Positions 5,183 through 29,698 of a DNA stretch of 64,000 nt are shown here, one piece after another. A program made the translations under genes and the position numbers. The stretch spans positions 1 to 64,000 of the forward strand of contig JAKQNP010000009.1 of the NCBI GenBank assembly GCA_029565675.1. Direction: 5' to 3'. Source of the DNA: a bacterium. Its GTDB lineage: Bacteria > Zhuqueibacterota > Zhuqueibacteria > Residuimicrobiales > Oceaniaggregativiventaceae. Positions within the stretch are counted from its first letter, which is position 1. Every line of letters starts with the position of its first letter. The notes under the pieces were generated by a model. It saw only the letters and a list, made by a program, of their open reading frames with translations. It searched no databases and was not told the origin of the DNA.

Positions 5183-5337
5183 ACCGAATTCGCCAAAAGT
5201 CGAGCGTCGCCAGATTATGGCAGAAGAAGCGCTCGACTGCCACTCAGGCTGGTCACTGATCCGAAGCGGCAGTTGTTGCTTTTCCCTCTGTTCGTCCCCA
5301 TTTTGATTGTTCAACCTTTCAATGAAGAGGAGCATAC

Positions 5338-8893: not shown

Positions 8894-8903
8894 GAAACAG
8901 CCA

Positions 8904-10397: not shown

Positions 10398-10403
10398 GCA
10401 TCG

Positions 10404-11255: not shown

Positions 11256-12111
11256 TGTTATCTGCAGAAAGGCAAGCGTGAGCGAGGTTGATCTGACAAT
11301 TGCGTATCGAGTCTATCCGCATGTTTCAAAGACGCCGGCGATCTATCCCGAGGATAAATACAAGCTCGCCGAGTTCTGTGTTCGTTCGCTGAAAAAATCC
11401 CTTGGCGATTTGCGGGTCAAGATCATCGTGTTGCTGGACAATTGCCCTGCAGAGTATCGCGCGATGTTCAGAAAGCATTTCAGCGATGACTCACTGGTCT
11501 TCATTGAATTGCCGGGTATCGGCAACCGCGGAACCTTCCTCCGCCAGATCGACGAATTGCTCCGTCAGGAGTTTTCCGAACTGGTCTATTTTGCCGAGGA
11601 TGATTATTTTTATCTCGAGGGTCAATTTCATGAAATGGTGTCGTTCATCCAGAGCCGCAGCGATGTGCATTTCGTAACACCTTATGATCATCCAGCCTAT
11701 TACCGGGAGGTTTACCATCAGCCGTCTGCAGGAATCGAAGTTGCTGGCGCCAGGTATTGGAAACGCGCTCGCTCCACCTGTCTGACCTTCCTTACGACCA
11801 AAAAGGAGCTGAAAAAGTGTGAAAAAATCATGAAAAGCTACAACGACGGCAATCATGATTATGGGATCTGGATGGCAGTGACCAAATTCGACGGGTTGAA
11901 CGCCATCGCTTTGTTGCAGGTGCTCTTGCAGGATTGTGGATTTTTGAAAAAATTCATCTCGACGATCTACTTTGGTTGGCGGCACCTGCTTTTTGCGAAA
12001 AAAATGCTCCTCTGGTCGCCTATACCGACAATTGCAACTCATCTCGAAAAAGAGTGTCTGGCGCCCGGAATTGAGTGGCATAAATATTTCGCTACAGCAA
12101 AAGGAGCATGA
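11236..12111 (+). CDS. Putative GT-A glycosyltransferase-like protein
   Basis: About 291 aa. It opens with DLTIAYRVYP, a Rossmann-like strand, and contains LVYFAEDDYFYLEG near residue 120, where an acidic cluster resembles the DxD metal site of GT-A enzymes. It has no signal peptide. The start is ambiguous: ATG 11236 (used here, overlapping the methyltransferase by 20 bases) or GTG 11278 behind AGAAAGG, which begins right before the conserved part. Context among polysaccharide genes supports a sugar transferase, but I do not recognise a defined subfamily. Confidence 0.65.
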   Translation: MGSRGADVICRKASVSEVDLTIAYRVYPHVSKTPAIYPEDKYKLAEFCVRSLKKSLGDLRVKIIVLLDNCPAEYRAMFRKHFSDDSLVFIELPGIGNRGTFLRQIDELLRQEFSELVYFAEDDYFYLEGQFHEMVSFIQSRSDVHFVTPYDHPAYYREVYHQPSAGIEVAGARYWKRARSTCLTFLTTKKELKKCEKIMKSYNDGNHDYGIWMAVTKFDGLNAIALLQVLLQDCGFLKKFISTIYFGWRHLLFAKKMLLWSPIPTIATHLEKECLAPGIEWHKYFATAKGA

Positions 12112-12121
12112 GAAAACAGGA

Positions 12122-13048
12122 ATGGCCGCGGTTTTTTGCAAAATATGTCGTTCCGATCAGACTGAATTTCTGTTTGAAAAGAATGGCTTTGATCTCTATT
12201 CCTGTGCGCAATGCCGGGTAGTTTTTGCTTATAATGAACTCTCGCAAAGCCAACTGGAGGAATTGTTAGGTTCGCTCTACTCAGAGCCGTATTTTTCGCT
12301 ACAAAAAGAACCGCAACATGGGAATCTGGGCTATCAGACCGATTATTTTTCCCAGAAGAAAGAAGAAAAATACCGTTTTGCCGCGCGCATGTTGAAACAG
12401 ATCGACAGGATCAAACCTCAGATGGGACGGATGCTGGATGTCGGATGTGCTGCCGGATTTTTTCTGCATGCCGCAAAACAGCGCGGTTGGCAAACAGTTG
12501 GGATTGAATTGTCGCAGACCGCTGCTGCTTTTGCTCGCGATCAATTTGGTCTGGATGTGGTTGTCGGAACATTGGAAACCACAGAAATGGGATCGGCATC
12601 TTTTGATGTGATAACCGCCTGGGATGTGATCGAGCACGTGACCGATCCGCAGAAATTTGCGCAAGCCGCCGCTCGATTGCTCAAGCACGACGGGATTTTG
12701 GTGCTCGGGACGCCAAACGCGGGCGCTTTGGCCGCTCGCCTGCGCGGCAAAGCATGGAAGATTTACAAACCACCGGAACATCTATTTTATTTCAATCCAG
12801 GCTCGCTGCGCTATTTGCTGAAAGCTTATTTTGGAATTCTCAAAATCAAAAATTCACCGGCGCCGCCGACGCGGATTTATGGATCTCTGTTCAAAAAAGC
12901 GAAATATGCCGCTTATCGGATTTTTGATGCTGCAGCAACATTTTTGCAGCACAGCGAATACCTGGTTGCCTGCGCATCCTTTCCAGAGCTGACCAAAAGA
13001 ATTGATGCCGAGTTTACCGCCGAGTCGAAAACTCGTAACCGAGATTAA
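12122..13048 (+). CDS. SAM methyltransferase with N-terminal zinc-ribbon
   Basis: 308 aa. The N-terminus carries two CxxC pairs (CKIC and CAQC, 22 residues apart), a zinc-ribbon seen in sugar-modifying methyltransferases. The SAM domain follows with MLDVGCAAGFFL (motif I), VGIELS, and FDVITAWDVIEHV (post-II). The frame is open upstream to 11972, but that part overlaps the preceding glycosyltransferase, so ATG 12122 is preferred. Likely methylates a nucleotide sugar or terminal glycan residue; specificity is unknown. Confidence 0.85.
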   Translation: MAAVFCKICRSDQTEFLFEKNGFDLYSCAQCRVVFAYNELSQSQLEELLGSLYSEPYFSLQKEPQHGNLGYQTDYFSQKKEEKYRFAARMLKQIDRIKPQMGRMLDVGCAAGFFLHAAKQRGWQTVGIELSQTAAAFARDQFGLDVVVGTLETTEMGSASFDVITAWDVIEHVTDPQKFAQAAARLLKHDGILVLGTPNAGALAARLRGKAWKIYKPPEHLFYFNPGSLRYLLKAYFGILKIKNSPAPPTRIYGSLFKKAKYAAYRIFDAAATFLQHSEYLVACASFPELTKRIDAEFTAESKTRNRD

Positions 13049-13056
13049 AAACAGCC

Positions 13057-14211
13057 ATGACCATAGAGATTTTTTCGATCAATTTTCATCTTTTTGAATT
13101 GCCGTTCATTGTTTTTTTACTCGGCGCCGCTATATGGCGGCTGCTGCAGGAGGGTACTGCGGTGCAGTTGTCGGACGCCAAACCTGTCCGGCTGTTTTTT
13201 GTTTTGCTCATCGTTTACATTTTTTTGGTGCAGTTGTCCATCGTCAACGCGATTGCCCCGATCATGGTTTTCAAATCGGTGTTCAAATGGTTGGAGGTGT
13301 TGCTGGTCACCCTGTTGGTGTTTTTCTATGTTTCTGATCAGCAAAAATTCAAAAATATTTATTGGTTTCTTTTCTGGTTCAATTTTAGCGGTCTTGCATA
13401 TATATATATACAAATCATAATGGGCAACAAAAATATCTTGGAATATCGTCTGTTTTCTTCATTTCAATTTGTTCTAGTTTATGGTATGATTTTTCCAATC
13501 TATCTTAAAACTTTTAAGAAAGCTCTTTTAATTTTATTATTGATAATCACAACCGCGATTATGTTATCTCTTTCTCGACTTCTTTATTTATCTGCATTTA
13601 TTGTAACAATCGTTTCTCTTTGGCATTTTTCACATAAAAGACGCCAAGTCGCAATACTATTTTTTCCATTCATTACACTTTTATTATTTATCACTATCAG
13701 GTACCCAGAAGTCTTTAGCCGTTTATTTACCTTTTTTTCTCCAAAGTCCGGATCAAATCAGGAAAGGATGACACTTTTTTGGCTTAGTCTTTTAGCATTT
13801 TCACAGCATCCATTCATTGGAATAGGTTCATTAAATTTCCAAGATTTTTATGAAAAAGCAGGAATTCCTTTTGGCTACTCTGTTGAAAATTTATTCCAAC
13901 TTCCAAATCCGCACAACACGTTTCTGCAAATCGCTGCTGAAGAGGGTGTTTTTGCCTTGTTGGTTTTTTCTGCATTGGTTTTATTGGGATTCTATTTGTT
14001 GAACAAGCATTCCAAACGGCGAATTATTTCGACTGATTATATGTGCGGTCTGCAAAATTTCTATCTGATTCTTTTTTTTACTCTGTTTGTCGGTTTTATC
14101 TCTTTTCAAAACAGGATTAATCTGTCTGTGATCTGGGGGATTGCTCTGGCGCTGTTGCGATTCAGCGACCAGAAGATAATTGCGAATCGGGAAACAAAGG
14201 ACGATGCATAA
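13057..14211 (+). CDS. O-antigen polymerase/ligase-like membrane protein (Wzy/WaaL family)
   Basis: 384 aa with at least ten hydrophobic segments. The signature NPHNTFLQIAAEEG, with a His before an H-N-x2-L-x5-E-x-G pattern, lies in the large loop near residue 285, as in O-antigen ligases and polymerases. It should join lipid-linked repeat units in the periplasm. The middle of the gene (about 13380-13920) is strongly AT-rich: a hand count of 13501-13560 gives 14 G+C of 60, against 35 of 60 at 13141-13200. Both ends match the GC-rich neighbours. The reading frame is intact, so this looks like a recombinant gene rather than a broken one. Confidence 0.85.
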   Translation: MTIEIFSINFHLFELPFIVFLLGAAIWRLLQEGTAVQLSDAKPVRLFFVLLIVYIFLVQLSIVNAIAPIMVFKSVFKWLEVLLVTLLVFFYVSDQQKFKNIYWFLFWFNFSGLAYIYIQIIMGNKNILEYRLFSSFQFVLVYGMIFPIYLKTFKKALLILLLIITTAIMLSLSRLLYLSAFIVTIVSLWHFSHKRRQVAILFFPFITLLLFITIRYPEVFSRLFTFFSPKSGSNQERMTLFWLSLLAFSQHPFIGIGSLNFQDFYEKAGIPFGYSVENLFQLPNPHNTFLQIAAEEGVFALLVFSALVLLGFYLLNKHSKRRIISTDYMCGLQNFYLILFFTLFVGFISFQNRINLSVIWGIALALLRFSDQKIIANRETKDDA

Positions 14212-15535
14212 CTCATTCTGGCGACAATTCCTGGTTATCCTGGTTTTGGCTGCACTTTTGCGCCTTATCTTTTTAGCAGTGATCATCCCTCACCCTGAAC
14301 GAACGGTCAGACGCGACACACCAACCTATGTGCGGCCGGCTGAAAATATCCTGAACGGCTTGCCGTTCAGCGAGCCCGGCATCGAATGCGCTCGCCGAAC
14401 ACCGGTTTACCCGCTGTTTTTAGCCGCCGTGTTCAAGGTTCTTGGCCATTCACTTTTGGCCGTGGCTGCGGTACAAATTATGCTCAGCGTGCTCTCTGTT
14501 GCTCTGCTCTTTTTTCTCGCCAGGTTGTTCGCCCCCGAACGCGCAGCCCTGTTTGCCGCTCTGTTGTTCGCTCTCAGTCTGAACAGCATCGTTTATTCGA
14601 TCTATATTCTCAGCGAAACTCTCTTCACTTTATTATTTCTTTCTATGGTGTTCGTTCTGGTTGTTTTCGCTCACAGGCAGAACTTGCAGTGGATTTTTAT
14701 TGCTGGCATTTTTACCGGACTGGCGATCTTGTGCCGCCCTCTTGGCCAGTTTCTTCCTGTGGTGATAACCGGATGGATCCTTCTGATCGGAGGAAATTTT
14801 CGCAATAAAATCAAAACACTGGTACTCTACCTGTTACCGATCCTGCTTCTGGTTTTACCATGGATGGTTCGCAATCAAAAGGCATGCGGAACCTTTACCA
14901 TTTCCACCATTTCGAGCTATAATTTATTGTTTACTTATGCCGTCGCTTTGGAAGCAGACTTGACAGATCAAAATGAAGAGACGATAAGAGAGAAAATCAG
15001 ACAAAAATTCATGCAGACCATGTCCCCGCCGACTAAAGAATCCGATGCAGCACGTGCAGCCCGGCTGCAAAAGGAATGGGCGTGGGAAATCATTAAAAAA
15101 CATCCTTTTCGCTATGCGAAAATTCACCTGGCTGGATTGCCGCATACTTTCTTGCCCAATATCACCGATCTCTTTGAAATAGCCGGCGCAACTGCCGGTG
15201 GTAAAGGGACTCTGGCTATTCTCAATCGCGATGGTTTGTTTGCTGCAGTCAGGCACTATTTTGCCGGTCGAATTGAGCTTTTGTTTTTTGCCGTACCCTT
15301 TGTTCTCGTTTTGTTTACGACCTATTTATGCATGATTTTCGGATTTTTTCGCTCTCTTTCCAGGCAAAAATTCGCGTTGCTGTTTTTGTTGATCGTTCCG
15401 TCATTGTTGTTGCTCATCTCTTCAGGCCCGGCATCCGTGCCCCGTTTCCGCGCCCCGGTCATGCCGATCATCTGCCTTTTTGCCGGCATCGGCCTGGACG
15501 CTCTGGTGCTGAAATACAAAGTCAAGAACCATTGA
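14204..15535 (+). CDS. GT39/ArnT-like membrane glycosyltransferase (PMT_2 family)
   Basis: 443 aa with about ten membrane segments. The first periplasmic loop has RRDTPTYVRPAENI and ARRTPVYPLFLA, which match the acidic DxP loop and RxPxYP motif of GT39/ArnT-type transferases. These use polyprenyl-phosphate-linked sugars in the periplasm to modify proteins, lipid A or polysaccharide. ATG 14204 has AAAGG just upstream; a TTG at 14180 is possible but less likely. It overlaps the polymerase gene by eight bases. Confidence 0.82.
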   Translation: MHNSFWRQFLVILVLAALLRLIFLAVIIPHPERTVRRDTPTYVRPAENILNGLPFSEPGIECARRTPVYPLFLAAVFKVLGHSLLAVAAVQIMLSVLSVALLFFLARLFAPERAALFAALLFALSLNSIVYSIYILSETLFTLLFLSMVFVLVVFAHRQNLQWIFIAGIFTGLAILCRPLGQFLPVVITGWILLIGGNFRNKIKTLVLYLLPILLLVLPWMVRNQKACGTFTISTISSYNLLFTYAVALEADLTDQNEETIREKIRQKFMQTMSPPTKESDAARAARLQKEWAWEIIKKHPFRYAKIHLAGLPHTFLPNITDLFEIAGATAGGKGTLAILNRDGLFAAVRHYFAGRIELLFFAVPFVLVLFTTYLCMIFGFFRSLSRQKFALLFLLIVPSLLLLISSGPASVPRFRAPVMPIICLFAGIGLDALVLKYKVKNH

Positions 15536-15554
15536 TCCTCTGCAGGCATAGCTT

Positions 15555-16454
15555 ATGATTTCGGTGATCATTGTCAGCTGGAACACGCGGGAATTGACTC
15601 TGCGCTGTCTGCAGTCGGTCTGCCGCCATTTTCAAGGCGAGTTCGAGATCATTTTGGTCGACAACGCCTCGAGCGATGATACCCTGGCAGCAGTCAAAGA
15701 ACAGTTTCCGCTGGTCGAAATCATCGCCAATGATCGGAATCGCGGCTATGCGCAAGCCAACAATCAGGCCATTCACCGCGTCCGGGGTGATCTGGTGTTG
15801 CTCCTGAATTCGGATTGCCAAATCACGACCGCCGGGTCGGACCAGGAGCTCACCCGCTATTTCTCCGTTCATCCGGAATGCGGAGTGGCGGGTGCTTTGC
15901 TGTTCTTGCCAAACGGCGACCTGCAGACCGACAAGCGCGTGTTCAATACCGCAGCCCGGGTTTTTCTGACGCAAATCTGTTTTCTCGATGCGCTGCGCAA
16001 CAAAAAACCGCCTTCTTCAAGCGAGGCCTACGAGACTGATTATGTTGACGGCGCGTTTCTGTGTGCGAGAAAAGAACTCTTTCAGCAGGTTGGTCTGCTG
16101 GATGAAAGCTTTTTCATGTATGCCGAAGATATGGAGTGGTGCGCCCGCGTTAAGGCCCGTGGTTGGGCGATACACGTCTTGCCGACACTTGCGGTTGTAC
16201 ATCACCATGCGCAAAGCGCGAAAAAAGACTATTGCCGTATGTTGCTGCACAATGCGGTAAACAACTGCCGGTTTATCCGCCTGACCCAGGGCAGGGGAGC
16301 GGCTCATCTTGCCTATGCATTCTATCTCGGCGGTATGCTGATCCGCGTTTTTCTCTCTGTAGTGCGTCGAAACGGCCTGGCCAGGGACTATTGGTGCGGT
16401 TTCAGGACCACCTTTGCGAATTGGAAACATCTGCATGCGCGTTTCAACTGGTAA
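15555..16454 (+). CDS. Family 2 glycosyltransferase (rhamnosyltransferase-like)
   Basis: 299 aa. Classic GT2 start SVIIVSWNTRELTLRCL, then ILVDNASSDDT and LLLNSDCQI as the nucleotide-sugar and DxD-like sites. MYAEDMEWCARVKARGW matches the acceptor-side ED motif of WbbL-type rhamnosyltransferases. A short C-terminal hydrophobic segment could touch the membrane. The enzyme would add one sugar to the undecaprenyl-linked unit in the cytoplasm. Its end overlaps the next glycosyltransferase start by 20 bases. Confidence 0.9.
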   Translation: MISVIIVSWNTRELTLRCLQSVCRHFQGEFEIILVDNASSDDTLAAVKEQFPLVEIIANDRNRGYAQANNQAIHRVRGDLVLLLNSDCQITTAGSDQELTRYFSVHPECGVAGALLFLPNGDLQTDKRVFNTAARVFLTQICFLDALRNKKPPSSSEAYETDYVDGAFLCARKELFQQVGLLDESFFMYAEDMEWCARVKARGWAIHVLPTLAVVHHHAQSAKKDYCRMLLHNAVNNCRFIRLTQGRGAAHLAYAFYLGGMLIRVFLSVVRRNGLARDYWCGFRTTFANWKHLHARFNW

Positions 16455-17589
16455 AAAACAGATCATCGCGGTCAGCGCACTTTTGGCCGACATCCCGGGC
16501 GGCGTAAACGCCTATATCCGCAATCTGTGTTCGGGTTTGTCCAGCTGGACCGATCGATTCGATTTCATCCTATTCACCAACCCGCGTTCAGGCGGCCCCA
16601 TCCCCGATTGGCCCAATACCGTGCCTTTTCCCCTGTGGCGCTCCAACCCGATTTCCAGGATTATTCAGGAGCGGTTGACATGGCCGCGATTGATAAAAAG
16701 GCACCATATCGATCTCTTTCATTCACCGGTATCCTATATCCCTCCGGGAGTGAAGGTGCCGGCTGTATTCACGGTTCACGATTTGCGCGCATTTCATTTT
16801 CCCCAAACCTATCAAAAACTGCGGGTTTTGTTTTTACAGCGACAAATTCCGCACTCAATCTCGCAGGCGCAGCGCATCATCGCCGTCTCCGATTATACCC
16901 GCAACGATTTGATCCGCCTGTTTTCCGTGCCGGCGGAAAAGATCGTCACCATCCATGAAGGCATCGACTCCAAAAAGTACCAAACTCCGACGATGAACCG
17001 CGATGCGATTCTGCATAAATTTCAACTTCCAGGGCGCTACCTGCTGGCTGTCGGCCATTTGGAACCGCGTAAAAATTATGTCCGCCTCTTCCGCGCCCTT
17101 GCCCTATTGCGCGATCGTTTTCGCATCGATTTGCCGCTGGTCGTGTGCGGCCGCAAAAATTGGCAGGTGGATGAAATTCAAAAGGAGATCGACCGACTGC
17201 ACCTTGCCGACCAGGTGCGGTTGTTCGGCGCTGTGGATGAAGCGGATTTAATCGGCTTGTATCAATCCGCATTTATTTTTATATTTCCTTCGCTATTCGA
17301 GGGATTCGGCTTTCCGCCCCTCGAAAGCATGGCTGCCGGGGTACCGGTGGTTGCTTCCAATACCACCAGCATACCTGAAGTGTGCGGAGACGCAGCCCTC
17401 TATTTCGATCCCCATGACGAAGAAGAGATGGCGGAACGCATTTATCAATTGATCGACGATCCACAACTCTATAAACTGCAAGTCGTTAAGGGAAACGAAA
17501 ACATCAAGAGATTTTCCTGGGAACGCTGTGTGCGGGAAACCGTAAACCTCTATCACAATGCTTTGGAAACCGCGGAGATCGGTGCTTGA
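16435..17589 (+). CDS. Family 4 glycosyltransferase (mannosyltransferase-like)
   Basis: 384 aa, GT-B fold. N-terminal domain with VNAYIRNLCSGL; the C-terminal domain begins near YLLAVGHLEPRKNY and contains the EX7E motif in SLFEGFGFPPLESMAAG, which binds the nucleotide sugar. This arrangement is typical of retaining GT4 enzymes adding mannose or similar sugars. ATG 16435 is chosen over TTG 16414 because the shorter protein starts right before the first Rossmann strand. It overlaps the GT2 gene, so the two are coupled. Confidence 0.9.
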   Translation: MRVSTGKKQIIAVSALLADIPGGVNAYIRNLCSGLSSWTDRFDFILFTNPRSGGPIPDWPNTVPFPLWRSNPISRIIQERLTWPRLIKRHHIDLFHSPVSYIPPGVKVPAVFTVHDLRAFHFPQTYQKLRVLFLQRQIPHSISQAQRIIAVSDYTRNDLIRLFSVPAEKIVTIHEGIDSKKYQTPTMNRDAILHKFQLPGRYLLAVGHLEPRKNYVRLFRALALLRDRFRIDLPLVVCGRKNWQVDEIQKEIDRLHLADQVRLFGAVDEADLIGLYQSAFIFIFPSLFEGFGFPPLESMAAGVPVVASNTTSIPEVCGDAALYFDPHDEEEMAERIYQLIDDPQLYKLQVVKGNENIKRFSWERCVRETVNLYHNALETAEIGA

Positions 17590-17643
17590 TTTTATTTGGC
17601 AGCTTTTGATCATCCTTTGACTCTGTTGGAATGAAAAGCAGCA

Positions 17644-18816
17644 ATGATTAAAATAGTGCGCATCCAATCCCGAATCTGTATCGGCGGTCCGGCATTGCAC
17701 ACCGAGATCCTCACTACCTATTTGCCTGGCGAGCGTTACCAAACGATATTGGTCGGCGGTCAGCTGCAGGAACACGAACAGGACCTTTTTCGCTCGCTGC
17801 GCGAAAAAAAGCTCGATGTTCGTTTGTTGCCGGAAATGAAACGCGATCTTTCGCTATCAGATGATCTACAAGCCATCTGGAAACTGATTTGCCTGATCAA
17901 AAAAGAAAAACCTCAGATCGTTCATACCCACACAGCCAAGGCGGGGACCCTGGGACGTATTGCCGCGCTGATTTGCGGTGTGCCTGTTGTGGTCCACACC
18001 TTCCATGGTCATGTTTTTTATGGCTATTTCTCTCCTCTAAAAACCCGGCTGTTCATTCTCGTAGAAAGAGTGCTGTCTCTGATGAGCGATCAGATCATCG
18101 CCATCAGCGAATCCCAGGCCGCGGATCTTGTCCAGAAATATAAAGTGGTCTCCTCGAAAAAGGTCAGCGTGATTCGTCTGGGTTTTCATCTGCAACGCTA
18201 TCAATCTGACCGCTCGCCATGGCTGAAGAAGCAGCTGGGGATCGGGACTGACAGCGCGCTCGCCGCGGTAATCGGCCGGCTCGTGCCAATCAAAAATTTA
18301 CCGATGGCCATTGGGGCTATCAAGCTTTTGGTCGACCGGGGAAGAGATGTTCATCTCTGCATCGTTGGCGACGGCGATGAACACGAACGTCTGAATCGGC
18401 TGGTGCAGGAATCCGAATTGCAGGATCGTGTGCATTTTATGGGTTGGATAACAGAGATAAATAGGGTATATTGTGGAATAGATATGCTTTTACAGAGTTC
18501 GCTGAATGAAGGTACTCCGATTTCGATCCTGGAGGCGATGGCGGCAAAAGTGCCGGTGATCTCCACTCCGGTCGGTGGGGTTCCGGATTTGATCCAGGAA
18601 GGCATTTCCGGATTTTTGTGCGAGACGGACAATCCCCACGACATGGCGCGTCAAATCGATTTTGTTCTGCAAAATCCACGGATCGTTGGAACCGTGACCG
18701 CCAACGCCAAGGAATTCGTGCTGAAAAACTATGACTATTCACGCCTCATCGGGGATATCGATTCTTTGTATCAAAAATTGGCTTTGCTAAAGCTGCCGAC
18801 CGAATTTTCCTGTTGA
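17644..18816 (+). CDS. Family 4 glycosyltransferase
   Basis: 390 aa, GT-B fold. N-terminal motif RIQSRICIGGPALHTEIL; VHTHTAKAGTLGRIAA and VHTFHGHVFYGYFS are typical of GT4 enzymes of WcaL/PglA-like type. The C-terminal domain carries VIGRLVPIKN and the EX7E site in SLNEGTPISILEAMA. It is the last gene of the first run, 54 bases after the preceding transferase. A new promoter follows its stop. Probably adds one sugar of the repeat unit. Confidence 0.9.
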   Translation: MIKIVRIQSRICIGGPALHTEILTTYLPGERYQTILVGGQLQEHEQDLFRSLREKKLDVRLLPEMKRDLSLSDDLQAIWKLICLIKKEKPQIVHTHTAKAGTLGRIAALICGVPVVVHTFHGHVFYGYFSPLKTRLFILVERVLSLMSDQIIAISESQAADLVQKYKVVSSKKVSVIRLGFHLQRYQSDRSPWLKKQLGIGTDSALAAVIGRLVPIKNLPMAIGAIKLLVDRGRDVHLCIVGDGDEHERLNRLVQESELQDRVHFMGWITEINRVYCGIDMLLQSSLNEGTPISILEAMAAKVPVISTPVGGVPDLIQEGISGFLCETDNPHDMARQIDFVLQNPRIVGTVTANAKEFVLKNYDYSRLIGDIDSLYQKLALLKLPTEFSC

Positions 18817-18974: not shown

Positions 18975-19967
18975 ATGAAAATGATCGCCACTCTGTTTGT
19001 TCCATTTTTGCTCGCGCTGTTGACGACACCGTTGTTTCGCCGGCTTGCCCTGCGCTACCGTGTCTATGCCCATACCAACGATCGCACGGTACACAGCGGT
19101 TCGGTACCAAAGCTTGGCGGCGCCGCCATCATCTGTGCATTTTTGGCCGGTTTGTGGCTGCTGGGGCTTTATATGCCCGAATGGAGTCTGTTCGCCAACG
19201 CCAAAGTCTATTCGCTGGCGTTGGCCGCTCTGGTCGTTTTTATTTTGGGATTTTTGGATGACAAATTTGTTCTCGATTGTAACATCAAGTTCTTTGTCGA
19301 GATCGTTGTCGCTGTCTTTTTGTCCACCATTGGCGGTTGGCGCGTCGCATCCTTGATTTTGCCCGGGATGGCTGCAATTGATCTCGGCTTTTTTTCCTAT
19401 CCTTTGACCGTCTTGTGGATCGTCGGTCTGTCCAACGCCGTCAATCTCATCGATGGCCTGGACGGTTTGGCCTCAGGCATCGTGATCTGTGCCGCATTGA
19501 TCAATGCCGCAATCGGATTGTTGTTTGGCAATGCGCTGTCGATCTATGCAGGTTTGTTGGTGGCAGGTGCTGTGGCTGGATTTTTGGCCTATAACATCAA
19601 CCCTGCATCGATTTTTATGGGCGATTCGGGCAGCCTGACTTTGGGAATGATTTTGGCGTGCCTGACAATCGATGCAGCTGCCATCTCACCTGGACAAGTC
19701 GCACTGTTTGTGCCTGTTGTTTTGTTCGGCATCCCCCTCCTGGATACCGTTCTGGCCATCGTACGCCGATTGCGCCGCGGCATCCACCCCTTCCATGCTG
19801 ACCAGGAACATATTCATCATCGGTTGGTTCGTCTTGGACTCAGTCAACCGGGCGCGGCTCTGTTCATGGTGGGAATGAGCCTTATCCTGGGAATCCTGGC
19901 CTTTTTGCTCGCGCATGGCATTCATACGGATCTCGAACTTTTATCCTGCTTGCAATTGTTCTATTGA
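18975..19967 (+). CDS. Polyprenyl-phosphate HexNAc-1-phosphate transferase (WecA/MraY family), copy 1
   Basis: 330 aa, about ten membrane segments. Family motifs in order: VHSGSVPKLGG, FLDDKF (acidic Mg site), NAVNLIDGLDGLASG, FMGDSGSLTLG and the cytoplasmic HADQEHIHHRL histidine motif that marks WecA-type enzymes rather than MraY. It transfers a sugar-1-phosphate from a UDP-sugar to undecaprenyl phosphate, starting the repeat unit. A second paralogue lies at 27437. ATG 18975 follows its own promoter. Confidence 0.9.
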   Translation: MKMIATLFVPFLLALLTTPLFRRLALRYRVYAHTNDRTVHSGSVPKLGGAAIICAFLAGLWLLGLYMPEWSLFANAKVYSLALAALVVFILGFLDDKFVLDCNIKFFVEIVVAVFLSTIGGWRVASLILPGMAAIDLGFFSYPLTVLWIVGLSNAVNLIDGLDGLASGIVICAALINAAIGLLFGNALSIYAGLLVAGAVAGFLAYNINPASIFMGDSGSLTLGMILACLTIDAAAISPGQVALFVPVVLFGIPLLDTVLAIVRRLRRGIHPFHADQEHIHHRLVRLGLSQPGAALFMVGMSLILGILAFLLAHGIHTDLELLSCLQLFY

Positions 19968-20115: not shown

Positions 20116-23100
20116 ATGAAAAAGAATCTTCTCATCATTGGCCTGCTGTCTGCTCTTCTCCTGCAGTATCCACCGGTCCATGGACAACTTCCCAACGGCA
20201 GTTTCGCGCTTGTCGAAGAGACCAACCGCCAGGCAATTTTTGCATGGAACGCACCTGAACTGGCCTGGGACTTGTTCGAATGTCAGGGGGAGGTCTACGC
20301 AATCCCGGTTCTGGGAGATCTGCTAAAACTGCAGAACCCTGGATTTCCCCAATTGCCGGTCATCTCTGCCAGTATCGCCATCCCCGGCGACAGCGACGTG
20401 GCGATCACGGTCCTTGATTCAGTCACAGCGGTTTATCCGTGCAAACCGCTCATGCCATCGCCAATGCGAATCATCGACGCAGATACGCTCTCGCATATCG
20501 AATTCAAAACCGATCCACTCTATGAATCGATGCCTGTCTATCCTTCCTCTTTCCTTCTCAGTGAGATCTATCAAAAAAATGACGAAAGAGTTCTCCGTCT
20601 GCAGCTCATGCCGATAAAAGCAATGCCGGCGGTACAGAGCATCTCCCTTTTGCACCATTTAAAAGTGCAAGTGACTTTCACCGAAGCAGCAACAGCCGCC
20701 AGGCGCAAGCCGGAAGCTATTGCCGCCCTGCCTGGTGAGCACGTTGCGATGGTACCAGAGTGGCTGCCGCCTGATCCTGCAGTCAAACTGGTTACCGTCG
20801 AACAAGGCGTCTATCAAGTCAGCGGTCAGGATTTGCGAACGGCCGGCATCGATATCGATAACATTCGACCTGCAACCCTTCAAATTTGGAGCGATGGGCA
20901 ACAGCAAGCCTGTAGAGTATCGTCGCTGCAGCCGGACAGAATGAGCGCAACCGACCAGGTGCTGGTCTATTTGCCGCGACGAGCTGGACACGAGACCTGG
21001 TATCACCCTTATTCCGATACCCTGATATCCTGGCTGACGTGGGGTAAGGAAAACGGCAAACGTTACTACCAGATTGCCCATCATGACGGCAGCAGCGCAA
21101 ACAGGATATCGGCTGTTTCTGACACTCTCCATTTGGAAAAGGAGCTCTTTTATTACGCCGGCGATTCCGACCTCGATATACAAAATACCGACCTGGTATC
21201 CGGTGAGGGGTGGGGATGGCAGATCATCAACCTGGGCGGCCAGTTTCGGCACCGTTTTGAGTTTGAACATCAACTGTTACCCGGCGATAGCGTCCACATC
21301 AGAATTCGCTTGCGAGGTACCACGCTGGCCCCTCAAAAGCCAGATCACCATGTCCAACTCAATCTGAACAGCCGAATGATTAACGAAGCCTATTTCAATG
21401 ACCGGGAAGAATTGGTGATTCTGACCGCCGTTCCTGCACAAGAGATCCGACGAGGGCAGAATACCATCGAACTTTTTTCGCTCGATGACCTGGGCGCGGA
21501 ACGCTCACAGTTTTATGTCGATTGGATCGATCTGATCTATCATAAGGTTCCTCGCGCTTTGCAGGGGACAATCGATTTTCATCTGTCGACACCTGGATCG
21601 ATTTTGTTGTCCGGCTTTGTGGCACAAAATATCACGGTTTGGGATCCCATCCAGGCTCGGGACCTCGTTCCATCGCACCTCGGACAGGCGCAATTTCTCA
21701 ACTATGTTGTCCGTTCCGCCGGTCTGGATGATGGCAACCGCGCCCAATTCTATCAGGGCGATCAATTGATTTTTACCGGCAGTCGCGGCCACAATTTGGT
21801 GATTGTCGACCCGCAGACAGCGGTTGTCACCGCGCAGCAGCGCTTCGACACCTGGTCTTCTCCGGCAAATGCAGACAGCCTGGCTGTTTTTCTCAACCGC
21901 TTGCCAGAGGGGATGATTGTGTTGGCGGCTGTTCGAGATGAAGGTTCGCACAACCTTAACGAGGCGGTCTATAAGGCCTATGAACAGTGCGGCAGTGGTT
22001 TGATTCGCGATGTCGGATCCCGCGATTCGTGGGCCTTTATCGGCAGAAAAGGCGATTCCAAAGCGATTGCTGAAGTTCACCAACCTCGTTTGACCGGCGG
22101 CGCCGATTGCCAAACACAGCTCTATTTTCCCGCAGGCGGCGACTCCTACAGCGCGCTCTTTGATTCCCTGGCCGTCGGCCGCTATATCGCCTTCGATTCG
22201 ACTGCATGGCTCGCCCCTCTGCGAATTGAGCAAGAAAAGCCCTCACATTGGCGCATGTCGAACAACGGCGCCGATTATCTGGTTATCGCGCATCCGCGCT
22301 TTTTGCAGGCAGCACAACAACTGGCCGATTATCGGCGAACCCAACATGGCCTTCGTGCTGCAGTGGTTCTGATTGACGATATTTATGATGAGTTCAACGC
22401 CGGCCTGGCAGATCCCATTGCGATCAAGGACTTTCTGCGCTATTGCCACGACCATTGGCAAAAACCTTCACCGACCTATGTCCTGTTGTTCGGCGATGCA
22501 TCATGGGATCCAAAGCGCCATATCGGCAGCAAAATCGATTTTGTTCCAACTTTCGGCAATCCGGCAAGCGATGTCTGGTTCGCCTGTCTGGATGGTCCGG
22601 GAGACCTGATCCCGGATATGCACGTCGGCCGCCTCGCCGTCGAAACCGCAGAACAAGCTGATGAGGTTCTGCATAAAATATTTACTTATGAGGATGCCGA
22701 ATCAGATATTTGGAAAAAAACATTTGTTTTCATCTCCGGCGGATTCGATGCATTTGAACAATCGGTTTATATTCAACAATCGGAAAAGGTCGATCAACAA
22801 TATGTACAGGCCTTCCCGGTCCGCGGCAAAAGTGTCAAAATACACAAAACGACATCCGGTGTCAGTGAAGGCGAAAATCGACAAGAAATACTCGACGCTC
22901 TGGACCAGGGCGCTGTCTGGTGCAACTTTATCGGCCATGGCGGCAGCTGGACATGGGACCTGATTTTCCACAATCCGGATATCGACGAATTGCGCAATGC
23001 ACCGGCCTTTCCCTTGATCACCAGCATGACCTGCCATACCGGCAGGTTTGCGGAACCAGCGCAGAACTGTTTTGGCGAATCCTTTATCCGTGCTCCTCAG

Positions 23101-25797
23101 AAAGGCGCCATCGCTTTTCTTGGCTCCTCTGGATGGGGCTATTCCTATGAGGATTTTTTGTTCCTGCAGGAACTTTATCCTGTTGTTCTGCGGGATTCAG
23201 TTCGCACCCTTGGAAAGGCAATCGACCTGGCCAAAGAGCGGCTTTTTGTTTCAATGGGCGGCAGCGTGACCATTAAAAACATGGTCAGACAGTACAACCT
23301 CCTCGGCGATCCGGCTCTGGTATTTGCCCTGCCAACCCAACCCGACCTGGCCTTGCAGGCGCAATCGATCTCTGCCGATCCCAACCGTCCCAGCGAAGCC
23401 GACTCGATTGCTCGAGTCGCTGTGCGCATCTCCAACTTTGGTCTGCAAACCCGCGACAGTGTCCAGGTGCGTTTGTCTGCCAAACATCCAACCGCAGGCA
23501 CCCGCATCATTGAACCGATTGCTCAGGTGCCGCCAGTCGGGTTAGAGGCTGAAGCTGATTTCATCTTGCCGTTGCGAGATCTGGCAGGTCAAATCCAGCT
23601 GATCGCCGACGTTGATCCGTTTGGCAATATCATCGAATCCGATGAGTCCAACAACCAAAGCGAAATGCGGCTGATCATTCTCTCCACCCATATCGCTCTT
23701 TTTGCACCACAAACCAATGCCTTGTTGCCGGCCGAACAGGCCGTTCTAAAAATCAGCAATCCTGGATTGATAGCGGACGAAAATCTGTCCTTTGTCTTTG
23801 AAATCGATACGGTCTCCACCTTTACCAGCTCCTTCAAGCGCATGTTTGGCCCGACCCCTGCCGGCGAATTGCTGACCCGCTGGTCTCCAGATCCTCCTCT
23901 GCCGGCAGGCCGCTACTTTTGGCGGGCGCGCAATGCGAGCGAGTTGACAGACGACGCCTGGAATTCTTCCACTTTTTCTGTCTCAAACGATGGCACTTTC
24001 GGCTGGCGGCAAAGCGCCGGTCAGTTCAGCAATAACCAACTCACCGCTCTCGCCGCTGACGATCGAGTGACCTTGGCAAGTGAATCCATACCGCTCTATG
24101 TCGAGTCCGCTGCCTATCAAGATGGCAATTATGCTCGGATCATCGTCGGCGATCGCCCAACCATCGAGCCCAAACGCGGTTTGAATGCGGTGATCTATAA
24201 TGCCGCGCAAGGTGTGGTCCGGTCGATTGGAGCGTTTGATACCTATGCCGACTCGACAGCTGCGAACCGGTTTGCTGATTTTATCGCCACTGCCGCAGAA
24301 ACCGATGTGATCCTGATTGCGGTGAAGGATGAAGCCTCTACTCGCCTCAACACAAACGCGCTTGCCGCCATGGAGACTATCGGCAGTCAATATTGCCGCC
24401 AGATCGGACCACGGGATTCCTGGTGCATCATCGGCAGGAAAGGCGCAAAAATCGGTTCGGTGCCGGAAAAACTGGCAAAAGCCGGATCGGGAACCGCGGT
24501 GGCGGTGGATACGCTGTCTCTGTTTTATCCGCAGGGGTCCATCAAAAGCACACGGATTGGGCCGACAGAGAACTGGAAAAATCTGGCCTTTGACTGTATT
24601 GTCCCGGAAATGTGTCGGCTCAATATACGTGTTTGGGGATACGATGAAAAAAGCGGCGCCGAAGTGGCGCTGTTGCAGACAGAGAACAGCCCGGTTAACC
24701 TCAGCGGCATCTCCCCTCAGGATTACTCTTTTCTCGTTTTGTCTGCTGATTTTTCAACAGAAGACCGTTTTCGAACGCCCATCCTGAAGAACTGGTCGGT
24801 CACTTTTGCACCGGCAGCGGATCTCGCCCTGAGCTCCGACACCATTGCCCATGACCGCGATTCCATCCTCGTCGGCAATCCAATTCATTTTTATGCACGT
24901 GTCCATAACCTGGGATACAAGGCGGTTTCTGGATTTTCCCTGGCTCTCGAGGAGATCGATTTGGCAAACGGCAAAAAAATATCGACTCTCTTGCATCAAA
25001 CTCAGATAGTGGAACCGGACAGCTGTGCAGAGATCATGCTCGAATGGCCTACCATGGGCAAGTCAGGAGAATATGACTTGTACTTTTACCTCGATCCCGA
25101 TGATCAGATTGTTGAATTGTATGAAACCAACAACAGCTCATCCGCCCGGTTCAACGTGCTCGCAGATAAACAAGCACCGACGATCGAGCTGTTGTTCGAT
25201 GGCCGGGAAATCCAGACAGGCGATTTCGTTTCGAGCTTTCCTTCCATTGTCGCCCATATTTTCGACAACAGTCCCGTTGCGATCGATGATACGTCAGCGT
25301 TTAATGTCATGCTCGACGGAAACCGGCTTGCTTTCTCCGAAAGCGAACAATTGCGATTGAACCCGGGCAATTCCGCCACCGATCTGCGCGCTTCATTGCT
25401 GATTACACCACAATTGTCCGACGGCGATCACTTGCTGGAAATTTTTTTTAGCGACCTGAGCAAGAATCAGACCTACAGTCGAATTCACTTTGTCGTTGAA
25501 AGTGAACTCAAATTGTCACAAGTGCTGAATTATCCCAATCCCTTTATTGATTTTACCGATTTTGCTTTTATCCTTACCCAACCTGCTGTTGTTCAGGTCA
25601 AGGTTTTTACCATCTCTGGAAGATTGATCAAAGAATTTACTCCCCGAAGGTGTGCAGCCGGATACAACCAGCTGGATTGGAACGGCAGAGACGACGATGG
25701 GGATTGGCTGGCCAACGGCGTCTACCTCTACAAAATCATTGCCAAAACCGATACCGATCAGGTTGAATCTCTGGGCAAGGCAGTGGTGATGCGATGA
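20116..25797 (+). CDS. Gingipain-like C25 cysteine protease with two ILEI/PANDER-like and two CARDB-like domains and a sorting tail (possibly PorU-like)
   Basis: 1893 aa. Signal peptide 1-25 (ends VHGQ). The C25 catalytic core holds His941 in FIGHGGSW and Cys973 in SMTCHTGRF, 32 residues apart, close to the 33 of gingipains. Before it (about 557-645) and after it (about 1353-1450) lie two similar domains sharing FDT-x-n-DE-x-n-RDSW-x3-GRKG, which I assign to the ILEI/PANDER (FAM3-like) fold. CARDB-like beta domains are near 1074-1180 and 1568-1675 (both end in ESNN/ETNNS-type turns). The tail from about 1798 has LNYPNPF and a GVYLYKI end, a type IX secretion sorting domain. It could be the sortase PorU, which is itself C25, or a secreted protease. 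It sits between polysaccharide genes, which fits PorU's job of linking cargo to glycolipid. Confidence 0.85.
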   Translation: MKKNLLIIGLLSALLLQYPPVHGQLPNGSFALVEETNRQAIFAWNAPELAWDLFECQGEVYAIPVLGDLLKLQNPGFPQLPVISASIAIPGDSDVAITVLDSVTAVYPCKPLMPSPMRIIDADTLSHIEFKTDPLYESMPVYPSSFLLSEIYQKNDERVLRLQLMPIKAMPAVQSISLLHHLKVQVTFTEAATAARRKPEAIAALPGEHVAMVPEWLPPDPAVKLVTVEQGVYQVSGQDLRTAGIDIDNIRPATLQIWSDGQQQACRVSSLQPDRMSATDQVLVYLPRRAGHETWYHPYSDTLISWLTWGKENGKRYYQIAHHDGSSANRISAVSDTLHLEKELFYYAGDSDLDIQNTDLVSGEGWGWQIINLGGQFRHRFEFEHQLLPGDSVHIRIRLRGTTLAPQKPDHHVQLNLNSRMINEAYFNDREELVILTAVPAQEIRRGQNTIELFSLDDLGAERSQFYVDWIDLIYHKVPRALQGTIDFHLSTPGSILLSGFVAQNITVWDPIQARDLVPSHLGQAQFLNYVVRSAGLDDGNRAQFYQGDQLIFTGSRGHNLVIVDPQTAVVTAQQRFDTWSSPANADSLAVFLNRLPEGMIVLAAVRDEGSHNLNEAVYKAYEQCGSGLIRDVGSRDSWAFIGRKGDSKAIAEVHQPRLTGGADCQTQLYFPAGGDSYSALFDSLAVGRYIAFDSTAWLAPLRIEQEKPSHWRMSNNGADYLVIAHPRFLQAAQQLADYRRTQHGLRAAVVLIDDIYDEFNAGLADPIAIKDFLRYCHDHWQKPSPTYVLLFGDASWDPKRHIGSKIDFVPTFGNPASDVWFACLDGPGDLIPDMHVGRLAVETAEQADEVLHKIFTYEDAESDIWKKTFVFISGGFDAFEQSVYIQQSEKVDQQYVQAFPVRGKSVKIHKTTSGVSEGENRQEILDALDQGAVWCNFIGHGGSWTWDLIFHNPDIDELRNAPAFPLITSMTCHTGRFAEPAQNCFGESFIRAPQKGAIAFLGSSGWGYSYEDFLFLQELYPVVLRDSVRTLGKAIDLAKERLFVSMGGSVTIKNMVRQYNLLGDPALVFALPTQPDLALQAQSISADPNRPSEADSIARVAVRISNFGLQTRDSVQVRLSAKHPTAGTRIIEPIAQVPPVGLEAEADFILPLRDLAGQIQLIADVDPFGNIIESDESNNQSEMRLIILSTHIALFAPQTNALLPAEQAVLKISNPGLIADENLSFVFEIDTVSTFTSSFKRMFGPTPAGELLTRWSPDPPLPAGRYFWRARNASELTDDAWNSSTFSVSNDGTFGWRQSAGQFSNNQLTALAADDRVTLASESIPLYVESAAYQDGNYARIIVGDRPTIEPKRGLNAVIYNAAQGVVRSIGAFDTYADSTAANRFADFIATAAETDVILIAVKDEASTRLNTNALAAMETIGSQYCRQIGPRDSWCIIGRKGAKIGSVPEKLAKAGSGTAVAVDTLSLFYPQGSIKSTRIGPTENWKNLAFDCIVPEMCRLNIRVWGYDEKSGAEVALLQTENSPVNLSGISPQDYSFLVLSADFSTEDRFRTPILKNWSVTFAPAADLALSSDTIAHDRDSILVGNPIHFYARVHNLGYKAVSGFSLALEEIDLANGKKISTLLHQTQIVEPDSCAEIMLEWPTMGKSGEYDLYFYLDPDDQIVELYETNNSSSARFNVLADKQAPTIELLFDGREIQTGDFVSSFPSIVAHIFDNSPVAIDDTSAFNVMLDGNRLAFSESEQLRLNPGNSATDLRASLLITPQLSDGDHLLEIFFSDLSKNQTYSRIHFVVESELKLSQVLNYPNPFIDFTDFAFILTQPAVVQVKVFTISGRLIKEFTPRRCAAGYNQLDWNGRDDDGDWLANGVYLYKIIAKTDTDQVESLGKAVVMR

Positions 25798-25980: not shown

Positions 25981-26043
25981 CAATAAAAAAATTAACGGCT
26001 CTCGTGCGCTCTGCAAGTCGCATGAACAGTCAGAGTGTCTGGT

Positions 26044-27279
26044 ATGCGCATTCTTTACATCACCCAGTATTTCCCTCCGGAAGTGGGGGCGACGCAAACC
26101 CGTGCGTTCGAGATGGCACACAATCTGAAGTCCTGGGGACATCAGATCGTCATCCTGACCGAAATGCCCAACCATCCGGTGGGCATTGTGCCCGCGCCAT
26201 ATCGCCGCAAATGGCGGGTTGTCGAGCGCTACCGGGGCTTGCCGGTGGTGCGCTCCTGGGTTTTTGCCCGTCCGAAAAAGACTTTTTTTACCCGTATGGG
26301 TTTCTATCTCACTTTTATGGCCTCGGCAGCGATCAATGGCGTTTTCATCCGCGGCGGTTTTGATGTGGTCTTTGCCACCTCGCCGCCTTTTTTCGTCGGA
26401 CTGACCGGTCTGCTGCTCAGCCGTTTTTTCAACGCCAGGTTTGTTTTTGAAATCCGCGATTTGTGGCCTCGCTCTGCCGTGGAACTGGGCGAATTGCGCA
26501 ATCCGCGCGCCATCCGGCTGGCCGAAAAGCTCGAACTTTTTTACTATCGCAAAGCCGATCGCTTGATCGCTGTCACGCAAGGAATCCGCGATATCCTGCT
26601 GACCACGTCGGTCGATCCTGACAAGGTCGCGCTGATCCGCAACGGCACCAATACCCGGCTCTTCCGCCATGCCGGCGCGGAAAAGAAAACCGCCCTCGGT
26701 TTGCAGGACAAGTTCGTCGTCCTCTATGCCGGAATTCTCGGTATCGCGCAGGGCATGGAAACGCTCTGCCGTCTGGTGCAACGCTGTAAAGCCGATCCGG
26801 ATCTTCATTTCATCTTTATCGGAGCCGGACCGCTGCAGGAAGAGGTGCAAACCTGGCGACAACAATGGGAATTGCACAACCTCAGCCTGCTCGGACAACT
26901 GCCGCACCGGGAAATGCCCGCTTACCTTTCTGCAGCCGACGCCTGTCTGGTGCCGCTGAAGAAGAATCCGCTTTTCCTCGGGGCTCTGCCATCCAAAATG
27001 TTCGATTGCATGGCCTGCGAACGGCCGGTGATCTTGAGCGTCGACGGAGAAGCGCGGACGGTATTGGAAAAGGCCGGCGCCGGGCTTTACGCCGAACCGG
27101 ACAACGTCGAGGCTCTCTACAGGGCAGTTTACACGCTGAAATCGATGTCCCTCGCACAGCGGCAGGCGATGGGGCACTCCGGACGCGCTTTTGTCGAAAA
27201 CCGCTTCTCCCGCCAGCAACAAGCCCGCGAACTCGAAGCGGTGCTGCTGGATTTGCTGGCGATGCGGCAGAACGGCTGA
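26044..27279 (+). CDS. Family 4 glycosyltransferase, WbuB-like
   Basis: 411 aa. It starts MRILYITQYFPPEVGATQTR, the hallmark of WbuB/WcaI-type GT4 enzymes that add N-acetyl-fucosamine-like sugars. EIRDLWPRSAVELG and VDPDKVALIRNGTN are further family landmarks; SKMFDCMACERPVI is the late acceptor/nucleotide region. A hydrophobic patch near residue 90 could anchor it to the membrane. ATG 26044 is preferred to GTG 26035 because it gives the conserved start. WbuB homologues often neighbour a WecA-like transferase and an epimerase, which is exactly the order here. Confidence 0.9.
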   Translation: MRILYITQYFPPEVGATQTRAFEMAHNLKSWGHQIVILTEMPNHPVGIVPAPYRRKWRVVERYRGLPVVRSWVFARPKKTFFTRMGFYLTFMASAAINGVFIRGGFDVVFATSPPFFVGLTGLLLSRFFNARFVFEIRDLWPRSAVELGELRNPRAIRLAEKLELFYYRKADRLIAVTQGIRDILLTTSVDPDKVALIRNGTNTRLFRHAGAEKKTALGLQDKFVVLYAGILGIAQGMETLCRLVQRCKADPDLHFIFIGAGPLQEEVQTWRQQWELHNLSLLGQLPHREMPAYLSAADACLVPLKKNPLFLGALPSKMFDCMACERPVILSVDGEARTVLEKAGAGLYAEPDNVEALYRAVYTLKSMSLAQRQAMGHSGRAFVENRFSRQQQARELEAVLLDLLAMRQNG

Positions 27280-27436: not shown

Positions 27437-28540
27437 ATGAAGTATTGCCTGCTGGCTTTTACGGTTTTTGTCGAATCCTTTGTCCTGGCCTATCTCCTGG
27501 TACCGCTGGTCATCCGTATCGCCGAGCGATTCAATGTCGTCGATAAACCCGGTGCACGCAAAGTCCATCGAACGTCCAAACCCTTGCTGGGCGGAGTGGC
27601 GATCTTTAGCGGCTTTTTCTTCGTTCTGGTGATCAACATTTTTGCTTTTGCCTCCTTCCACCAACAAGAAAAGGTTCTGCAATTTTTGCCATCGGCACCC
27701 CGGCTTTTCGAGCACCTCATCCGCGTCCTGCCGCAACTGCTGATCATCCTGCTCGGCGGTGTGATGATGCATTTGCTCGGCCTCGTCGATGATATTTATA
27801 AAGAAAAACTCACCTATAAACCGAAATTTCTGATCCAATTCGCCATCGCTCTTTTTGTGACGCTGGCCGGCATTCGCACCAACCTGATGCCCGGAACCGC
27901 TCTCGACGTCGCGGTCTCGGTCTTTTGGATCATCGGCATCACCAACAGCTTTAATCTGCTCGACAACCTCGACGGCCTGACGGCCGGAGTGACCGTCATC
28001 GCTGCCCTGATTTTTATCGCGGTTGCCATCCTGCAAGGCCAGATCTTTATCGCTTTGATCCTTGCCGCCCTCGCCGGAGCGGCAGCGGGATTTTGGCCGC
28101 ATAATTTTCACCCTTCTCGTCTGTTCATGGGCGACAGCGGCAGCCTCTTCATCGGCTATATGTTCGGCGTCTTGACCGTGCTCGAATCCTATGTCGTGGA
28201 ATCGAGCGCCTCGCTGTTGCCGGTGGTGATGCCCATTCTCATTCTCAGCATCCCGCTCTACGACACTCTGTCGGTGATGCTCATCCGGCTGCGGGAAAAA
28301 CGCCCGCTGTTTATCGGCGATAAACGCCATTTTTCCCATCGCCTGCTCGATCTGGGTATGAACCATCGCGAAACCGTTGTCTTTATCTATCTGATCTGCT
28401 TTGGCGTCGGCCTGGCCGCTACCCTGTTGCCCTATGTGACTCTGGCCGGCAGCCTTGTCCTCGTCATTCAAGCGTTGATCGTTTACGCCTTGATCACCAT
28501 TTTGATCCGCGTCGGCAAACGCCGAACAAAAGCATCATAG
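27437..28540 (+). CDS. Polyprenyl-phosphate sugar-1-phosphate transferase (WecA/MraY family), copy 2
   Basis: 367 aa, about ten to eleven membrane segments. Motifs: VHRTSKPLLGGVAI, GLVDDIYKE (acidic site), NSFNLLDNLDGLTAGV, FMGDSGSLFIGY and KRHFSHRLLDLGM as the histidine loop. This loop differs from the HIHH of copy 1, so the two may prefer different sugars or serve two pathways (for example exopolysaccharide versus another cell-wall glycan). ATG 27437 is preceded by ACAAGGACTG. A palindrome follows the stop. Confidence 0.9.
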   Translation: MKYCLLAFTVFVESFVLAYLLVPLVIRIAERFNVVDKPGARKVHRTSKPLLGGVAIFSGFFFVLVINIFAFASFHQQEKVLQFLPSAPRLFEHLIRVLPQLLIILLGGVMMHLLGLVDDIYKEKLTYKPKFLIQFAIALFVTLAGIRTNLMPGTALDVAVSVFWIIGITNSFNLLDNLDGLTAGVTVIAALIFIAVAILQGQIFIALILAALAGAAAGFWPHNFHPSRLFMGDSGSLFIGYMFGVLTVLESYVVESSASLLPVVMPILILSIPLYDTLSVMLIRLREKRPLFIGDKRHFSHRLLDLGMNHRETVVFIYLICFGVGLAATLLPYVTLAGSLVLVIQALIVYALITILIRVGKRRTKAS

Positions 28541-28720: not shown

Positions 28721-29698
28721 ATGAAAGTTCTCATCACCGGTGGTGCAGGTTTCATCGGCTCACATCTGGCCGAGTTGCTGCTCAACAAGGGCCAGGAGGT
28801 CTATTGCATCGATGATCTGTCTACCGGCCGATTGCAAAATGTCCACCACCTGCGCCAAAATCCCAGGTTCCATCTGGCTGTGGAAACCATTCTCAATGAA
28901 TCGGTCATGGATCGGCTGGTCAGCGATTGCGATGTCATCTATCATCTGGCCGCCGCCGTCGGCGTTGAACTGATCGTCAAAAGTCCGGTGGAAACCATCC
29001 AGCGAAATATCCTTGGCACCGATGTGGTCTTGCGCCTCGCCAACCGCTATCTGCGCCGGGTGCTGATCACCTCGACCTCGGAAATCTATGGCAAAAGCGA
29101 GGCCACTCCCTTCCGCGAAGATGATGACCGCGTCCTCGGTCCGACCACCAAAAGCCGGTGGAGCTACTCTTGCTCCAAGGCCATCGACGAGTTTCTCGCT
29201 CTCGCTTACCACAAAGAAAAAAACCTCCAGACCATCATCATGCGTCTTTTCAATACCGTCGGCCCGCGGCAAACCGGCCGTTACGGTATGGTCATTCCGC
29301 GCCTGGTCCAGCAGGCCCTCAAAAATCAGCCACTCACCGTGTACGGCGACGGCAAACAAGTGCGCTGCTTTACCTATGTCCAAGATGTGGTCGCCGCGGC
29401 AGCCCGCTTGATGGAAACTCCAAAAGCGATCGGCCAGGTGTTCAATATCGGCAACACGGAAGGGATTGCTATCGGCGAGTTGGCGGAAAAAATAAAAGCA
29501 TTGACCGGCTCGAAATCGGAAATCGTCCTTATCCCGTACGACAAAGCTTATGAGGAAGGATTCGAAGACATGCGCATCCGGGTGCCCGATCTCAGCAAGG
29601 CCAATCGGGTGATCGGCTACGAGCCCAAAGTCAAATTGGATGAGATCCTCAAGCGGGTAATCGAATATTTTCGTCAACAAGAAGAAGAGGGTCGTTGA
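28721..29698 (+). CDS. NAD-dependent nucleotide-sugar epimerase/dehydratase (SDR)
   Basis: 325 aa, extended short-chain dehydrogenase fold. NAD site ITGGAGFIGSHL at the N-terminus; catalytic STSEIYGKS and YSCSKAID (Tyr-x3-Lys). RLFNTVGPRQTGRYGMVIPR and VYGDGKQVRCFTYVQDVV are the conserved substrate-side motifs of UDP-glucose 4-epimerase and UDP-glucuronate decarboxylase relatives. The exact reaction is uncertain: decarboxylases of this group share GDGKQ-R-F-YV. A strong AGGAGG lies eight bases before ATG 28721. It ends the polysaccharide region. Confidence 0.88.
   Translation: MKVLITGGAGFIGSHLAELLLNKGQEVYCIDDLSTGRLQNVHHLRQNPRFHLAVETILNESVMDRLVSDCDVIYHLAAAVGVELIVKSPVETIQRNILGTDVVLRLANRYLRRVLITSTSEIYGKSEATPFREDDDRVLGPTTKSRWSYSCSKAIDEFLALAYHKEKNLQTIIMRLFNTVGPRQTGRYGMVIPRLVQQALKNQPLTVYGDGKQVRCFTYVQDVVAAAARLMETPKAIGQVFNIGNTEGIAIGELAEKIKALTGSKSEIVLIPYDKAYEEGFEDMRIRVPDLSKANRVIGYEPKVKLDEILKRVIEYFRQQEEEGR

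Follow-up and report, generated by a model that had tools for sequence, protein, structure and literature searches.

The window, the whole stretch of 64,000 nucleotides analysed here, carries a gene cluster that lies entirely on the + strand and represents a Wzx/Wzy-type polysaccharide locus. Within it is a gene (20116..25797) for a C25 peptidase built on a PorU scaffold and containing two ILEI domains. Upstream of this gene are two GT4-family glycosyltransferases (16414..18816), identified by domain matches and often conserved in the loci of relatives, and a WecA-type polyprenyl-phosphate glycosyl-1-phosphate transferase (PNPT; Glycos_transf_4; 18975..19967), a conserved neighbour. Downstream, domain matches identify a WbuB-like GT4 glycosyltransferase (26035..27279), a second WecA-type transferase (27437..28540) and a NAD-dependent sugar epimerase/dehydratase (28721..29698), which is often conserved nearby in relatives' loci. 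The remainder of the locus (1974..16454) encodes SLBB/Poly_export (Wza-like), Wzz, UDP-GlcNAc 2-epimerase, Wzi, a Wzx-type flippase, methyltransferases, Wzy_C, PMT_2 and GT2 proteins. The polysaccharide setting that an earlier note had read from the DNA alone is borne out by these genes, from the Wza-like SLBB protein, Wzz, Wzi, flippase and Wzy_C to the GT2/GT4 enzymes and the two WecA-type PNPTs. At the start of the contig (365-1741), a GH10 glycoside hydrolase with a tail resembling those of the type IX secretion system (T9SS) and FlgD_ig adjoins the polysaccharide export genes.

The C25 gene begins with ATG and encodes 1893 amino acids, whose domains were assigned using Pfam, NCBIfam and alignment. 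Residues 1-23 (MKKNLLIIGLLSALLLQYPPVHG; 20116..20184), as read by eye in the translation, probably form a Sec signal peptide, and are followed by a Propeptide_C25 domain (Pfam; residues 68-200, 20317..20715) and a PorU-like N-terminal region (residues 224-505, 20785..21630), with canonical PorU proteins aligned over 85-100% of length. The Peptidase_C25 catalytic domain (residues 721-1068, 22276..23319; E 3e-88, 297 bits in Pfam) has an ILEI domain on either side, ILEI1 at residues 557-647 (21784..22056; Pfam, alignment and a fold model) and ILEI2 at residues 1354-1444 (24175..24447; profile match and alignment). The C25 dyad comprises His941 (22936..22938), invariant in 44/44 relatives, and Cys973 (23032..23034), invariant in 43/43; the earlier note had placed both residues correctly between the two modules. 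Pfam detects CARDB in two stretches (E 7e-17), the better scoring at residues 1580-1676 (24853..25143). The protein ends in a T9SS type A sorting tail/FlgD_ig-like domain (residues 1806-1879, 25531..25752; Pfam and NCBIfam), with FlgD_ig itself at residues 1817-1878 and the tail model TIGR04183 scoring 25 bits on the protein and 30 in the genome search, against a cut-off of 23. Both the CARDB domains and the sorting tail had been anticipated in the earlier note. A single-sequence AlphaFold2 model of residues 480-1090 was of low confidence (pLDDT 36).

The ILEI family (PF15711) matches the protein in two stretches, with a whole-protein E value of 2e-49. ILEI1 and ILEI2 score 94 and 84.6 bits against a curated cut-off of 27, and a profile search of the 4.43 Mb genome detects only these two ILEI copies; with scores this high in the sole ILEI domains of the genome, the layout lies far beyond chance. 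The FDT, DE and RDSW-x3-GRKG motifs by which the modules had originally been recognised occur in each of the two copies, just as the earlier note stated, and the proposed ILEI/PANDER (FAM3) fold is upheld by sequence matches of both copies to the POMGnT1 stem and to FAM3A/B/C chains. An AlphaFold2 model of ILEI1 from a four-sequence alignment (pLDDT 83.5) matches 21 PDB chains at E<=0.001 and probability 1.00, all of them POMGnT1, FAM3 or TMEM2, and the first match beyond these has an E value of 0.17. As modelled, ILEI1 has the FAM3/POMGnT1-stem fold; the fold match rests on this model, and ILEI2 is assigned by sequence.

POMGnT1 binds beta-linked GlcNAc through Arg129, Asp179 and Arg207 (PMC9802357; also PMC9437275). 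In vitro, FAM3C and FAM3A likewise bind sugars, and no binding is seen with a C. elegans domain lacking two of the three triad residues (PMC9802357). When positions are counted along a sequence alignment with POMGnT1, the triad maps to R557/D608/R636 in ILEI1 and R1354/D1405/R1433 in ILEI2. Among relatives, the putative ILEI1 triad is near-invariant (R557 in 31/32, D608 and R636 in 32/32), and that of ILEI2 is kept in most (R1354 in 41/45, D1405 in 38/43, R1433 in 39/43), with degraded versions in a few relatives (L045, L049, L067 and L076). This conservation argues for retained glycan binding by the ILEI domains, and the earlier suggestion that they could bind a glycan gains from the presence of the putative triad in both copies. 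The window domains share their fold and the three sugar-contacting residues with the POMGnT1 stem, FAM3 (ILEI, PANDER) and TMEM2; however, they are bacterial, occur as two copies and are fused to a C25 peptidase.

The C25 portion of the protein is related to PorU, and shares with it (NF033707; PDB 6za2) the Cys/His dyad, the propeptide, the N-terminal region, a C-terminal beta region and the T9SS tail. When the window protein is aligned with eight canonical PorUs, a common scaffold emerges at residues 224-505, 700-1075 and 1685-1893, interrupted in the window type by two insertions. The first (about 505-690) carries ILEI1 and is absent from canonical PorU and from single-ILEI relatives; the second, relative to canonical PorU (about 1080-1680), holds ILEI2 and CARDB, so that two ILEI domains and two CARDB stretches are added in all. 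Gingipain chains match the catalytic domain, but over the whole length the closest scaffold is that of PorU.

One possibility is that the window protein serves as the PorU sortase of this genome and has gained further domains; this view could draw on the shared scaffold and on a score of 372 bits to the PorU model. However, that score is below the equivalog cut-off of 420, and the genome encodes a separate canonical PorU of 891-892 bits on a different contig (G000:C42:43326-46577); across the class, 56/63 genomes contain a PorU that exceeds the cut-off. When 107 C25 catalytic domains are placed in a tree, every ILEI-bearing protein falls within a single clade (SH-aLRT 100), and PorU and the remaining C25 paralogues branch elsewhere. 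Identity with canonical PorU was rejected on these grounds, and we consider the elaborated-PorU explanation very improbable. As judged from sequence, the window protein is a paralogue on the PorU scaffold, separate from canonical PorU. The earlier description of a PorU-like sortase holds for the scaffold but not for the role of the genome's PorU, which belongs to another gene. That note had also held that a clear porU beside other type IX genes would speak against its view: a clear porU does exist, but no other gene of the T9SS machinery was seen next to it. Several genomes have canonical PorU as two adjacent copies (G047:C259, G026:C253, G015:C392, G043:C232, G060:C206 and G062:C55).

The genome contains four C25 proteins, including the window protein. 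Among them, the window protein has the highest score to the model for PorU2, a putative second T9SS sortase (NF052324), exceeding the other three at 324 bits, with a match that spans the catalytic domain to residue 1180; however, this is below the cut-off of 450. No PorU2 paper turned up in the library that was searched. The two other non-canonical C25 genes (L010:332-6250 and L012:5835-11768, G000:C62) are each followed directly by a PorV-like gene and, unlike the window gene, look like PorU/PorV-type pairs. A tblastn search of plasmids found only three C25/PorU-type matches, each covering at most a quarter of the window protein.

Profile searches of the genome detect SprA, canonical PorU and PorZ, the last two above cut-off, together with 16 PorV-family proteins above cut-off and about 130 matches to T9SS type A tails. 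Given SprA, PorZ, the PorV family and 130 tails, the window protein would be exported like any other T9SS substrate, in keeping with the sorting tail predicted for it earlier. PorU of P. gingivalis removes the tail from cargo proteins and attaches them to A-LPS (PMC8545088; PMC10202324) through an amide link to an amino sugar (PMC7468200), with the A-LPS being delivered to PorU by PorZ, a carbohydrate-binding protein (PMC8545088). Because canonical PorU and PorZ are both present here, general T9SS cargo does not need the window protein.

The window gene differs from canonical porU, with which it coexists, in being located among glycan genes. This linkage was assessed in flanking DNA from the phylum, for 45 genes of the ILEI-C25 type and 21 of canonical PorU, using for both sets the same profiles, built from the window neighbours, and a distance of 5 kb; the ILEI-C25 loci counted were the 38 with at least 1 kb of upstream flank, 29 of which are of the two-ILEI type. 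A WecA-type PNPT is present in all 29 two-ILEI loci, and in 24 of these it directly precedes the ILEI-C25 gene on the same strand. Either a PNPT or a glycosyltransferase occurs in 37/38 ILEI-C25 loci, compared with 0/21 canonical PorU loci. The genomes are related, and these counts are therefore not independent. Gene order varies, with the PNPT upstream in most families, downstream in family f8 (L045, L049), and downstream behind a GT4 gene in family f6 (L043, L046, L047), and such shifting order with linkage kept is a better argument than the raw counts. The link between ILEI-C25 and glycan genes is conserved across the class. Of the two neighbours, wecA and wbuB, that the earlier note proposed to look for in sister genomes, the wecA-type gene is kept, but the wbuB-type gene is less constant.

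The genes of the locus also bear on a different role, that of a polysaccharide assembly or quality-control factor, which would bind nascent glycan by its ILEI domains and cleave an outer-membrane partner, thereby regulating export or chain length. The Wza-like, Wzz, Wzi and flippase genes in the same co-directional run are consistent with this. However, the nearest constant partners (PNPT and GT4) are cytoplasmic or inner-membrane proteins rather than outer-membrane parts, and no precedent was found; we regard this role as improbable.

The window protein has a relative of the same family in candidate division KSB1 (L005, WJME01000211.1), an uncultured phylum now named Zhuqueibacterota (PMC11683472). 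ILEI domains were detected in 50/63 genomes of the class, with at least two copies in 36 and one copy in 14, although four of these 14 belong to two-copy families and have their genes on short contigs. Outside the class, ILEI was found in 4/19 further genomes of the phylum. A chance or local oddity is ruled out by this distribution; the layout that the earlier note had called unusual is a real combination of domains, but one conserved throughout the class rather than a one-off. In families f12, f13, f15 and f16 there is a single ILEI copy, which corresponds to ILEI2.

Some genomes appear to be without the ILEI-C25 gene, and several cases run counter to a glycan-dedicated reading. In G060, a window-type C25 protein (L142:2-2845) still has the dyad, but its ILEI2 position no longer carries an ILEI domain, and a search of G062, a 100% complete genome, revealed no protein of the window type. 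A single-ILEI gene in G066, from a sister class (L110:160-7300), is the exception to the glycan linkage: its neighbours are two phosphofructokinases, pyruvate kinase and radC rather than glycan genes. The degraded triads of some relatives belong with these counter-examples.

The explanation that we propose, to which we give about an even chance of being correct, is that the window protein is a PorU-like transpeptidase/protease that uses its own lectin domains on the polysaccharide of its locus. We infer export first by Sec and then by the type IX system, for which the protein would use its tail. Once it is at the cell surface, its two lectin-like ILEI domains would keep the polysaccharide, whether as such, lipid-linked or ligated, close to Cys973/His941. 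The enzyme would then cleave a surface protein or a T9SS cargo and pass it to the glycan by transpeptidation, much as PorU does with A-LPS; alternatively, as a last step, cargo may be processed while the enzyme is bound to the glycan. The ILEI domains would thus perform in cis the task that in Porphyromonas falls to PorZ, acting in trans. The likeness to PorZ is in this proposed role of bringing glycan to a C25 sortase (PMC8545088), whereas PorZ itself is a separate beta-propeller protein, also present in this genome, and the putative lectin here is within the enzyme and of another fold.

The main rival to this explanation is a surface protease that is tethered or targeted to capsule or exopolysaccharide via its ILEI domains and cleaves proteins with no glycan transfer, perhaps in the maturation of surface proteins or in degrading nutrients or rivals. 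The C25 family includes the gingipains, which are plain proteases and, as described above, match the catalytic domain; the T9SS tail is like about 130 others in the genome, and layouts that combine a lectin with an enzyme are common among secreted proteins. On the other hand, the whole-length scaffold is closest to PorU, not gingipain, and class-wide linkage to genes for lipid-linked glycan synthesis would be unexpected for a general exoprotease. The present data fit both explanations; we consider a protease of this kind possible but rather unlikely.

Transpeptidation onto the polysaccharide, if correct, may extend to a second KSB1 protein-anchoring system, in which a PorU-derived, lectin-bearing sortase would attach dedicated secreted proteins to the Wzx/Wzy-type polysaccharide of the same locus, independently of PorZ and A-LPS. 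We advance this extension only tentatively. Protein-sorting enzymes with genes in exopolysaccharide loci are familiar from the exosortase/PEP-CTERM systems, but exosortases are integral membrane enzymes and are unrelated to C25. The conserved glycan-gene setting points to a second route for attaching proteins to polysaccharide. No study was found of how T9SS-bearing bacteria of phylum KSB1 fix proteins to their surface; for this question, a conserved PorU relative that combines sugar-binding-type domains with polysaccharide genes provides a direct candidate for both the enzyme and the glycan.

In the literature on PorU2, on KSB1 with T9SS and on ILEI with C25, nothing was found that describes the ILEI-C25 layout, which is apparently undescribed in papers, although Pfam/NCBI domain tables may already list it. 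C25/PorU and ILEI are each known; the new elements are their fusion and the association of this fusion with glycan loci throughout the class. Descriptions of the FAM3/POMGnT1 domain often come from animal cytokine-like proteins; here it occurs in bacteria, joined to an enzyme whose gene lies in glycan loci, and ILEI-C25 offers a simple test of sugar binding as the shared function of this domain. A second kind of ILEI protein, of about 960-980 amino acids, occurs at L068:5760-8636 (G027), L069:7634-10585 (G026) and L070:5296-8178 (G036); the two of these three that were scanned for domains contain a lamin-tail domain, ILEI, a CotH kinase-like domain and a T9SS tail.
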